DNA of 37,797 nucleotides from positions 1 through 37,797 of the IMG/VR virus record IMGVR_UViG_3300021338_000001, one strand, 5' to 3'. The translations under genes and the position numbers were made by a program. The stretch's first letter is position 1, and every line of letters begins with the position of its first letter. Shown here piece by piece: positions 1,881 to 27,176 of this stretch. The notes under the pieces were generated by a model. It made no database searches. It saw only the letters and a program-made list of their open reading frames with translations, and had not been told where the DNA came from. Source of the stretch: a virus.

Positions 1881-1908
1881 TTGCACTGTTGGTTATGTGG
1901 TGTATAAT
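1881..1908 (+). promoter_or_regulatory. Sigma70-like promoter of candidate RNA 1
   Basis: TTGCAC at 1881-1886 and a perfect TATAAT at 1903-1908 are separated by 16 bases, predicting a start near 1915. The -10 lies inside a 13-base perfect palindrome (GTATAATTTATAC, 1902-1914), a possible operator. Confidence 0.7.
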
Positions 1909-1914
1909 TTATAC

Positions 1915-2050
1915 TGCGGAGGTGAGATGCCGCGTTAAATTGATAAAGTAACAAGGGTTTATTAGTGCAGGTCTAGTGTTCGTGGGAAAACATCTCACTT
2001 ATGCTTTATCAGCCCCGAGTTACTGGGCTTGTACTAATAAGCCTTTTTTG
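1915..2050 (+). ncRNA. Candidate structured RNA 1 with 26-bp stem and pseudoknot potential
   Basis: No gene-sized open frame fits here. Transcription from the 1881-1908 promoter would give about 135 nt ending in a T-run (2044-2049). Bases 1953-1978 pair with 2021-2046 in 26 consecutive pairs (19 Watson-Crick, 7 G-U), leaving a 42-nt loop. That loop holds two segments complementary to the 5' leader: 1991-2000 pairs with 1920-1929 (10 bp) and 2002-2012 pairs with 1940-1950 (11 bp), so the fold can be pseudoknotted. The leader carries GGAGGTGA (1918-1925), a perfect anti-SD complement, followed by a three-codon frame ATG-CCG-CGT-TAA (1927-1938). The 10-bp pairing would cover both. Function is unknown; a leader or attenuator is an alternative, but the next gene is almost 400 bases away. 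Confidence 0.65.
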
Positions 2051-2145
2051 TGTCTAAAGCCGATGGCGAGGTAGTCGGCTGCTGGTTAAACAAAGCTGAG
2101 CGATTGACCATAACTAAACGCAGACAATATACAGCTAGACACAAA
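2046..2145 (+). other. Inverted-repeat segment downstream of RNA 1; gene-free stretch
   Basis: A perfect 10-bp inverted repeat, TTTGTGTCTA (2046-2055) and TAGACACAAA (2136-2145), encloses a 6-bp hairpin AGCCGA/TCGGCT. It could be a second domain of the RNA when the terminator is read through. The rest of the gene-free stretch to 2436 shows another copy of TCTCACTT (2159-2166, also in both candidate RNAs) and the inverted repeat at 2369-2403. I see no convincing gene there. Confidence 0.4.
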
Positions 2146-2368
2146 CCCTTCTAACGTATCTCACTTGATTAAGCATTCGGTACTTACCGCAAAACACCAA
2201 CAATTTAAACAACACTGGTTAGTGCGTCGACTTTTAGACCGAGGAAAAAGCGAGTTAATGTTGATGTGATCACATAAGCCGAATTTAACAAATTCATATA
2301 GGCGTGATGTATCGGAGCGACAACTCTAAAAACTGTTTCGCATATTGAGTAGCTAACATAACAGTAAA

Positions 2369-2403
2369 AGACCTTATTTGTTTGATGTATCAACTAAAGG
2401 TCT
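2369..2403 (+). promoter_or_regulatory. Interrupted inverted repeat upstream of orphan gene
   Basis: AGACCTT (2369-2375) and AAGGTCT (2397-2403) are perfectly complementary, with an inner TTGAT/ATCAA pair. It ends about 24 bases before the ribosome site of the gene at 2437. It could be an operator or a leader hairpin. No T-run follows, so it is not a terminator. Confidence 0.35.
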
Positions 2404-2436
2404 AGTGATAACTATCATTTAAATTTGGAGAGTAAA

Positions 2437-17673: not shown

Positions 17674-19818
17674 ATGGCATTACAATCATTTACTATAACT
17701 ATAGGCGCGCTAACTGATGCGGGTAATAATGGTAAAAACTATGTAAACAATCAACCCGTTTACATTAAAAAAACCAACGGTACGCTGGCGAGTATTTATC
17801 GCGATTTAGCAGGTACATCGCAAATTTCTCAAGATGGACTATCTAACGTAACAAACTCAAAAGGTCAGTTTACTTTCTTTGTTGATGCTGGCGATTACAA
17901 TGCAGAATATCAAAGCCAAGTTACACCGATTACAGTTGTAGGCCCTGATTACTTCAACAATCGAATTGATGAGGCTGTAAATCAAATTATTTTAGATTTA
18001 TCTACTTCTCGCGGGTTTAGGGTGCGAGGTACTTTTGCAGCTGGCTTTACTTATGAATTGCCTAATGATGTAGGTTTGGATGTTAGTGGAAACGCATGGA
18101 TTTATACTGATGTCAACGCCTTACCTTTTACTGTACCCGCTGCGACAACGCCAAGCTTTCCAACTTATACGCAAGTAACATTTAATCAGGCTTCAAATGT
18201 TAGTGACTCGCAAGGAACTAACGTGCAAGACTACATAAATAAAAATTTAACACCGTTTGAAACGGTTTCAGACATGCGAGCCTATGACTTTTCGAGCATT
18301 CAAGGTGGATCAAGAGTGGAGTGGAGTGGTTACTATGTTGATAATGATGGCGGAGGAAACGAGGGTATAGTTAGAACTGGAGATTCTACCGGTTTAACTG
18401 ACGATGGTGGATCTATCTTTGTTATAGTTAACGACCCTGTTAATGGTGTTTGGGTTGAAGCTAACCTGAAAGGGGAAACAGTAAATCCTCTCAAGTTTGG
18501 CGCTTTAGAATACCCAGTCGATAGCACAACACAGTTACAAAACGCCTTTAATTACAGTAAGTCAATTGAATTTAAAAAAGGGGTTTACGGCTACTCAACC
18601 CTTGCAGTGACGGATGATGCAATAGTAAATCTAAATGGCGCAACCTTAAAGCAAGTTGAGTATAGTGGTGACGCCTTAATTATAGACGGTTCAAACGTTT
18701 TGCTGAAAAATGGAATTATAGAGTCAAACCCGTCAGCAACAAATAGCAATAATGACGGAGTAAAAATAAATAGTGATAACTGTAAACTAGATAATATTGT
18801 AGTGGATGGTTACTATTACTCTATAGATGTAAGGGCCGATAACTGCACGCTAGAAAAAACTAAATCAATCAACTCTCTTTATGCCGGTGTGAGATTATTT
18901 GTTGGTGGTACTTTTAAAAGCTTTAGCCTGCTAAATCACACTAGCGAGGATTACGCGGTAAAAGGTTTAGTCGTAAACGGTACAGGATTTATAGATACAA
19001 TAGTAATAGACAACTACAACTCAAGCATTGACGGTATATCAACACCAGTTGACGCTATGAATGATTTACTAATTGATTCTGGTGAACCTGCAAGCACTAT
19101 AAACGTCGGTGTTTGCAAGTTGTTAAACTCAAGATCCAGAACGGCAGGATCAGGAAACAAGATACTAAACACTGGAAAGATCATAATCGAAAACACTGAA
19201 TTAAAAGTGGATAGAACCTATTCAAGCGGATATGGTTTATTATCTACAGCAGATACCGTACTAAAGGATGTAGAGGCGAACAATCGAATTCACGCTAGAA
19301 ACCTAACTGTAGACAGGTTGAAGTTTAAAGATTGCGTTACAGGTCTGGCCGAGCTAATAGGTTTAATTGGTGGCGGGGATAAAGCCGACCTAAGAGATTT
19401 GGACTACTCTGATACTAACACCACGATAAGCGGTCAAGTGATTAGACTAGACAGAAGCACGTCAAAAGATGAGTTCATCAAGCTTGGAAATATTAAAGGA
19501 GATGGGGTGTCAACCTTGCTTGGTGTTTTCACGGCTCCAACGAATAGGATTGGCTTTCTTGAGCTTCAAGGCTCGTTACAGGATGTTGCAACCATCTCAA
19601 CTGTTAGCGTTTACAGAGATTCGTTGTTTGTCAGAATTAGTCCGAATCAAAGACGCTTCGGTGCTAGAGCATCAGCACCGACGTCTGGCGACTATACTGT
19701 TGGCGACATACACCCAATCTCTACATTAAGCGCATCATCAACACATTCGGAGTATGTTTGCGTACAAGATGGCAATCCTGGGACTTGGTACTATCAAAAT
19801 CCTATAACAAGTATTTAG
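17674..19818 (+). CDS. Tail fibre / tailspike with beta-helix
   Basis: The 714-aa protein is the last structural gene. The N-terminal 140 residues (FTITIGALTDAGNNGKNY, QPVYIKKTNGTLASIYRD) should be the virion attachment part. From about residue 270 a long run of short strands and Asn/Asp turns (LNGATLKQVEYSGDALIIDG, VKINSDNCKLDNIVVDGYYY) indicates a right-handed parallel beta-helix of the pectate-lyase type seen in tailspikes. The end (APTSGDYTVGD, then CVQDGNPGTWYY) is a common phage-spike C-terminal motif. Depolymerase activity is possible, but no catalytic triad can be assigned by eye. A bidirectional terminator follows. Confidence 0.82.
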   Translation: MALQSFTITIGALTDAGNNGKNYVNNQPVYIKKTNGTLASIYRDLAGTSQISQDGLSNVTNSKGQFTFFVDAGDYNAEYQSQVTPITVVGPDYFNNRIDEAVNQIILDLSTSRGFRVRGTFAAGFTYELPNDVGLDVSGNAWIYTDVNALPFTVPAATTPSFPTYTQVTFNQASNVSDSQGTNVQDYINKNLTPFETVSDMRAYDFSSIQGGSRVEWSGYYVDNDGGGNEGIVRTGDSTGLTDDGGSIFVIVNDPVNGVWVEANLKGETVNPLKFGALEYPVDSTTQLQNAFNYSKSIEFKKGVYGYSTLAVTDDAIVNLNGATLKQVEYSGDALIIDGSNVLLKNGIIESNPSATNSNNDGVKINSDNCKLDNIVVDGYYYSIDVRADNCTLEKTKSINSLYAGVRLFVGGTFKSFSLLNHTSEDYAVKGLVVNGTGFIDTIVIDNYNSSIDGISTPVDAMNDLLIDSGEPASTINVGVCKLLNSRSRTAGSGNKILNTGKIIIENTELKVDRTYSSGYGLLSTADTVLKDVEANNRIHARNLTVDRLKFKDCVTGLAELIGLIGGGDKADLRDLDYSDTNTTISGQVIRLDRSTSKDEFIKLGNIKGDGVSTLLGVFTAPTNRIGFLELQGSLQDVATISTVSVYRDSLFVRISPNQRRFGARASAPTSGDYTVGDIHPISTLSASSTHSEYVCVQDGNPGTWYYQNPITSI

Positions 19819-26453: not shown

Positions 26454-27176
26454 ATGACAAACAGAAAGCAAATAAGCAAAAGAATGCGGTTTGAGGTTTT
26501 AAAGAGAGATCATTTCACTTGTCAATATTGCGGCGGAAAGTCACCAGAAAAGATATTGCATATAGATCATATTAAACCAGTTTCTAAGGGCGGCAAAAAC
26601 ACAATGCTAAACCTTGTCACATCATGCATAGATTGCAATTTAGGTAAATCTAATAAGCTTCTATCTGATGATTCAGCGGTTATAAAGCAGCAAAAAGAAA
26701 CTGAGCTTCTAGCTGAGAAAAAGGCGCAAATAGAGCTTATGATAAAGTGGCAGGAGTCTTTAAACAACGCAGATGAAAAGCTTTATTCCAGCGTTGAAAA
26801 ATTAGTTAACAGTTATCTAGTTGATAGAAGTGTTAATGAAAATGGAATGATGAAGATAAGAAAGGCTGTTAAAAAAAATGGATATGAAAAAGTTTTCAAA
26901 TCTGTTTCTGAATGCTACATGAGAAGCGAAAGCATTGAAGCGTTTGCAGACTCTTGGGCTAAGGCAATTTTGCACTGTTACGAAAATAAAGGATTTAACA
27001 TACATTACATAAAGGGGATCTTGAAAAACAGACTCGACTATTTTAATGAGCGCGGGTTTTACATAGCAATGAACAGCCATGAGATAACAAAAGAAAATGA
27101 AAGTATCTATTTGAATGCTGCAAAAAACTGTAGAAACCAAACTGACTTTTACGAACTTATTTCTGAGGTGCTTTAA
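26454..27176 (+). CDS. HNH endonuclease domain protein with extra C-terminal domain
   Basis: The 240-aa protein has an N-terminal HNH domain (residues about 10-66): Cys23-x2-Cys26, HIDHIKPVSKGG with His39, Asn53, and Cys58-x2-Cys61 followed by NLGKS. A coiled segment follows, then a helical C-terminal domain of about 150 residues (SSVEKLVNSYLVDRSVNENG, FNIHYIKGILKNRLDYF). Its style is like replication-associated proteins rather than free homing enzymes. It stands directly upstream of the O-like initiator, so it may act in replication or be a domesticated nuclease. It is not inserted within another gene, which argues against simple homing. Confidence 0.82.
   Translation: MTNRKQISKRMRFEVLKRDHFTCQYCGGKSPEKILHIDHIKPVSKGGKNTMLNLVTSCIDCNLGKSNKLLSDDSAVIKQQKETELLAEKKAQIELMIKWQESLNNADEKLYSSVEKLVNSYLVDRSVNENGMMKIRKAVKKNGYEKVFKSVSECYMRSESIEAFADSWAKAILHCYENKGFNIHYIKGILKNRLDYFNERGFYIAMNSHEITKENESIYLNAAKNCRNQTDFYELISEVL

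Follow-up and report, generated by a model that had tools for sequence, protein, structure and literature searches.

A pseudoknotted phage hairpin is probably the 5' module of a modular structured non-coding RNA gene

Introduction

To our knowledge, no function is known for GOLLD and ROOL, two abundant large structured phage RNAs that form cages in vitro. In GOLLD, the 5' region is variable, the 3' region is conserved and the linker between them sometimes carries tRNAs; ROOL is a large RNA of phages and prophages located near tRNA islands and containing several pseudoknots, and both build their cages through kissing loops (PMC12286853). In the Vibrio cholerae phage ICP1, a non-coding transcript of ~800 nt located in a gene-free gap was reported to be the most abundant phage transcript (PMC7567579).

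Here we analysed a single phage record, IMG/VR record IMGVR_UViG_3300021338_000001, whose 37,797 bases (the window) include Mu-F-like head morphogenesis, scaffold, major head, terminase, portal-like and DnaB-type genes. The original prediction placed in it a phage RNA with a promoter, a long stem and a pseudoknot, all three of which we could confirm, but its end at position 2050 was set too early, since the cassette runs to ~2420. We propose that the hairpin is very probably the 5' module of a modular structured non-coding phage RNA gene of ~500 nt (about 1915-2420).

As a large structured phage RNA with tRNAs in the linker of its homologs, the cassette resembles GOLLD. However, it is shorter (~500 nt vs 800), its 5' module forms a pseudoknot close to the promoter and ends with a U-tract, and its 3' region comes in several unlike classes, the core topology being conserved yet swapped for unrelated 3' RNAs. 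It shares with ROOL a large size, a location near tRNAs and the presence of pseudoknots. The RNA of ICP1, a Vibrio phage, is likewise large, non-coding and located in a gene-free gap, whereas ICP1 has no tRNAs; this likeness is one of description only, with no ICP1 record among the BLAST matches listed. Attenuator leaders and intrinsic terminators likewise have a hairpin and a U-tract right after the promoter, but the cassette has a 26-bp stem and two covarying leader-loop helices, and no Rfam attenuator class matches it.

Results

The original prediction knew of no named family that fits, and an Infernal-type search agrees: none of the 4227 Rfam families, GOLLD and ROOL included, gave a gathering-score match in the whole window, and the homologs described below yielded only real tRNAs. 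With the GOLLD model (RF02032), none of 14 records matched at E values up to 10, a result of limited calibration, since the model gave no match above its cut-off in any control genome or in 399 genomes of another class either; ROOL, covered through the full Rfam scans only, gave no match in the window or the homologs. Nor did we find a description of the cassette in the open-licence literature. The cassette thus appears to be GOLLD-like in organisation and is not a detectable GOLLD member.

The coordinates that had been given for the promoter, the stem, the loop and the leader-loop complements all hold in the window sequence (Table 1). Single promoter matches in this region of the window occur at chance level; the predicted promoter, made of TTGCAC (1881-1886), a 16-nt spacer and TATAAT (1903-1908), is conserved across homologs, being kept in 33 of 36 at a near-fixed distance vs 8% of shuffled upstream regions. 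Since the -10 element lies ~40 nt from P3 in most homologs, we place the transcription start at P0. The 26 consecutive pairs of P3 contain no mismatch and 7 G-U pairs, and the first of them draw on the U-tract. The fold of the hairpin in the window has a z-score of -4.25, with 0 of 200 shuffles being as stable, and its 42-nt loop (1979-2020) carries the two proposed complements of the leader, of 11 bp (TTGATAAAGTA/TGCTTTATCAG) and 10 bp (AGGTGAGATG/CATCTCACTT).

Table 1. Predicted features of the cassette in window coordinates
Feature	Position	Strand	Evidence
Sigma-70 promoter, TTGCAC-16-TATAAT	1881..1908	+	Sequence; spacing kept in homologs
P0, 5'-terminal hairpin GCGG...CCGC, loop carries P1a	1916..1933	+	14 homologs: 89% of cells paired; a two-sided change in one pair
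P1a, GTGAGATG, partner P1b in P3 loop (kissing/pseudoknot)	1922..1929	+	90% of cells paired; 3/7 pairs changed on both sides
P2a, TTGATAAAGTA, partner P2b in P3 loop	1940..1950	+	95% of cells paired; 7/10 pairs changed on both sides
P3, 5' arm	1953..1978	+	26 pairs in window; 96% of cells paired, 8/23 pairs changed on both sides
P1b, CATCTCAC, partner of P1a	1991..1998	+	Pairing kept in homologs
P2b, TGCTTTATCAG, partner of P2a	2002..2012	+	Pairing kept in homologs
P3, 3' arm	2021..2046	+	Pairing with 5' arm, kept in homologs
U-tract, terminator-like, conserved	2044..2049	+	Terminator scan; T5-T7 after P3 in the homologs inspected
P4 linker element, GTGTCTA (2050-2056) with TAGACAC (2136-2142); tRNA slot elsewhere	2050..2142	+	Sequence, inspection
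Second linker, ends in conserved AACAATTT (module swap boundary)	2143..2213	+	Homolog comparison
3' domain helix S1, 5' strand 2214-2222, 3' strand 2353-2365	2214..2365	+	Covariation
3' domain helix AC, UUAGACC (in 2231-2244) with GGUCUAG (in 2399-2412)	2231..2412	+	Changes across classes
3' domain helix S6, GTTGAT 2260-2265 with ATCAAC 2389-2394	2260..2394	+	Pairing kept in very different sequences

By using a mechanical descriptor (a long hairpin, a large loop, then a U-tract), we recovered the 5' module in ~45 loci, a homolog set into which the presence of the U-tract is partly built, as the descriptor itself demanded it. Among 14 divergent type-I members, 94% of 605 cells were paired and 19 of 44 pairs had changed on both sides, counts that concern structures named after inspection of the same sequences, in alignments of 14 to 22 sequences. 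None of 500 shuffles matched this pairing and two-sided change, and shifting the partner strands by 1-3 columns lowered pairing to 39-50%. Thus, the proposed stem and pseudoknot-type leader-loop pairings are real, the compensatory change in homologous phages being far beyond chance and extending to the stem pairs themselves (P3 in Table 1). First, P2 is the strongest case of covariation (GATAAAG/CTTTATC, GGTAAAAG/CTTTTACC, GTAGATATAG/CTATATCTAC and others). Second, the near-identical phages L319 (GTGATAC/GTATCAA) and L320 (GTGATGC/GCATCAA) differ by a compensatory A-U/G-C change in P1, which is a loop-loop contact given that P1a lies within the loop of the P0 hairpin. Third, types II and III differ in sequence but retain P0, P1 and P3, and their P2 is their own. 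In an automatic best-helix test, pairing of the leader with its own loop was clearly better than with the loops of other phages for P2 and modestly so for P1, partly because many phages have the same P1.

A G-C hairpin followed by a U-tract, as in an intrinsic terminator, is found at 2025-2049 in the window and as P3 plus U-tract in homologs. The RNA had been credited with its own terminator; the U-tract is indeed conserved, but the conserved cassette continues to ~2412-2420. In the window, the genes at 2-1756 lie on the minus strand, there is no + strand gene upstream of the cassette, and a scan of the + strand from 1908 to 2737 detected no promoter-like site. Given this lack of another + strand promoter and of + strand genes upstream, the conserved 3' domain would be made by reading past the U-tract, which implies at least partial read-through at this site.

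Beyond the U-tract, the linker of the window is predicted to close through P4, for which covarying versions could be recognised by eye in other phages (GTATCTG/CAGATAC, GTTTCTGG/CCAGAAAC, ATGCCTG/CAGGCAT). tRNA genes directly follow the U-tract in L132, L006, L007, L155, L162 and L321; neither ARAGORN nor Rfam detected a tRNA in the P4 linker of the window, unlike in L132, L006, L007, L162 and L321. A tRNA-like element (42 bits) was also seen within the linker of the RNA in L311 (9364-9465, minus strand), and its acceptor stem is extended by the flanks into an 18-bp perfect helix (AAACTGTATAAGTCTGAG/CTCAGACTTATACAGTTT), which would leave no free CCA end. A further leader-linker pairing (GTATCTCAC, ~2153-2162 in the window) was also considered; it was good in some phages and not in others and was dropped by inspection.

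The 3' domain spans ~200 nt 3' of the conserved AACAATTT and is supported by pairing counts along the named helices. In the alpha-2 set, all 90 cells of S1 were paired and 6 of its 9 pairs had two-sided changes; in the alpha-1 set, 93-100% of the cells were paired. S6 is found in unlike sequences as GTTGAT/ATCAAC, AGTGGTATGA/TCGTACCACT and TTCGATGG/CCATCGAA, and AC changes across classes (GACC/GGUC, GACCCG/CGGGUC, GATACG/CGTATC, TTAAGAC/GTCTTAA), being nearly invariant within the close set with no two-sided change inside alignment A4. Both S6 and AC cross S1, making a second pseudoknot. RNAalifold on alignment A4 recovered only the outer part of S1, as expected from an alignment that is pseudoknotted and gappy. 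Together, these comparisons show a cassette of three predicted parts, that is a pseudoknotted hairpin with its U-tract, a linker occupied either by tRNAs or by a closed stem of tRNA size, and a 3' domain with a pseudoknot of its own.

In five other loci (L003, L164, L316, L318 and L321), the 3' RNA is unlike that of the window and belongs by inspection to one different class; these unrelated phages have in common GGGGGAAAAAGGG-like and GAGTACC motifs. The 3' core fold was also observed at 3396-3640 of L144, a phage contig with no recognisable 5' module, where it lies near an ORF resembling by eye a C-5 cytosine methylase and where the end of the core weakly resembles algC RNA. Only L144 matched the algC model (RF02929), with 30 bits against a cut-off of 33.8, and an algC identity was ruled out on context, as genuine algC loci are short leaders behind coding sequence and lack the S1/S6/AC fold.

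BLASTn searches with the region and its relatives returned 27, 33, 40, 11 and 19 phage records (overlapping sets), all of them Vibrio or Pseudoalteromonas phages, and further homologs were found in IMG/VR contigs. The matches lie mostly in gene-free gaps with differing neighbours; among plasmids, there was no match to the region. Two loose DNA patterns gave mostly chance matches among the matches listed, and the matches of an exact-pattern scan of host genomes, found in scattered taxa, were taken for chance. In 395 sampled genomes of one host order, searched with strict filters that may miss some and with no positive-control genome, the type-I model matched none and the type-II model one; this match, in a numbered contig of a draft genome, has a tRNA beside it in the same arrangement. 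The RNA seems to be one of phages that rarely integrate.

Then, we compared closely related phages with 1.074.O (L009). First, 1.167.O (L164) is 93% identical to it up to AACAATTT and 95% after the 3' domain, and unrelated between. Second, 1.132.O (L161) is 92% identical up to AACAATTT and 99% after the 3' domain, again unrelated between. Third, in 1.116.O (L155) the 5' half is exchanged while the 3' half is 97% identical. Judged from sequence, these pairs show that 5' and 3' modules are exchanged between closely related phages at a fixed boundary. Phage BT-1011 (L163, 2002-2170) has only the 5' module, after which come the initial bases of a tRNA and the next gene; this locus is a natural deletion derivative. 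At 1005-1555 of phage 1.168.O (L167), a T5-Orf172-like DNA-binding gene takes the place of most of the RNA, of which only the 3' end is left, and a T5-Orf172-like gene lies directly 3' of the RNA in 1.016.O and 1.265.O (L158, L159).

Discussion

According to the reading that we favour, transcription would start at P0, and P1 and P2 would already have formed when the 3' arm of P3 is synthesised. These two helices would hold the 5' module in its pseudoknotted state, hinder full closure of P3 and lower termination at the U-tract, such that the polymerase would read on into the tRNAs and the 3' domain; cellular RNases would subsequently trim the transcript. The working part would probably be the 3' domain, a swappable effector, with the 5' module as a stabilising cap and gate. 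The gating step taken by itself is tentative, and we would put it at somewhat below even chances. The whole proposal is drawn from sequence, P3 with its U-tract resembles an efficient terminator, and P4 was judged by eye. Moreover, since P2a lies 2 nt from P3a and P2b is found inside the P3 loop just before P3b, full-length P2 and P3 would be strained in a single molecule and may not form together, leaving side-by-side packing, a partial P3, sequential folds or pairing in trans as possible solutions.

The same geometry would suit an attenuator, in which the 5' module mainly sets the output of the downstream tRNAs, 3' RNA and gene, P1 and P2 delaying closure of the terminator and the short form being a by-product. 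The joint conservation of promoter, crossing helices and U-tract, and the presence of a conserved downstream RNA with no other promoter, also favour such an attenuator. On the other hand, P3 (-35 kcal/mol) is far stronger than P1 or P2 (about -10 each), and no ligand, protein site or alternative helix beyond P1 and P2 has come to light. We consider this explanation quite possible, although short of probable.

The 5' and 3' domains might instead be two RNAs side by side, that is a terminated small RNA of ~135 nt and either an independent 3' RNA or the long 5' leader of the next gene. The terminator-like U-tract, the lone 5' module of BT-1011 with its tRNA remnant after the U-tract, and the short distance, in several phages, from the end of the 3' domain to the following start codon point in this direction, as does the 3' core alone in L144. 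However, no promoter precedes the 3' domain in the window, the order of the modules is preserved across some 20 loci, and almost every phage has a different next gene, which speaks against a leader specific to one gene. Separate RNAs are thus unlikely in our view.

It is equally doubtful that P3 mainly serves as an RNase III processing signal, a duplex of 25-26 bp, slightly more than two turns, whose cleavage would release the tRNAs and the 3' RNA. RNase III acts on stems whose length and near-perfect pairing are like those of P3, and the length of P3 is held at 21-29 bp across types, but processing leaves the covariation of P0, P1 and P2 unexplained.

Covariation cannot tell pairing in cis from pairing in trans. 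By analogy with GOLLD and ROOL, whose cages depend on kissing loops (PMC12286853), the leader and loop of different RNA copies might pair to form oligomers, which would relieve the strain that P2 and a full P3 impose on one molecule; we regard this also as rather improbable.

Finally, the switch first proposed, in which leader-loop pairing would mask a Shine-Dalgarno sequence (SD) or the RNA would titrate ribosomes through it, is refuted as a conserved function and can be given next to no weight: the anti-SD complement GGAGGTGA and the three-codon frame ATG-CCG-CGT-TAA exist in the window, but GGAGGTGA and the AUG coincide with the P1 strand, which in homologs reads GTGAGAAG, GTGGAAG, GTAGGAG, GTGGTAG, TTGGTAG or TTGAAAG, with neither SD nor AUG, whereas its partner changes to match and the P1 pairing is conserved. 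A switch of another kind, between leader-loop helices and full terminator closure, is conceivable.

Coming back to the modular RNA gene that we favour, the cassette appears to represent a class not yet described, in phages of Vibrio and Pseudoalteromonas that are cultured and amenable to work. A broader view, which we hold as speculative and somewhat unlikely, is that of a new large phage RNA class with a constant launching part (promoter, pseudoknotted 5' module and tRNA slot) and exchangeable structured 3' effectors, traded between close relatives like anti-defence or exclusion genes and possibly working as RNA assemblies. Its promoter is simple, it has a slot for tRNAs, and near-identical phages have naturally swapped its modules, these swaps being ready-made experiments. 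Phage PSA-HS2 carries the cassette (KF302036.1, about 18,315-18,770, + strand) and has a culture-collection entry, and its published infection RNA-seq time courses (PMC7082346, PMC11170926) make expression of the cassette checkable at once.

Two further elements were observed in the window. At 2737-2786, a TATAAT promoter-like site is immediately followed by a terminator-like hairpin with six T, the head-morphogenesis gene lying just 3', and an HNH endonuclease gene is located at 26454-27176 (Pfam HNH, E 6e-13).
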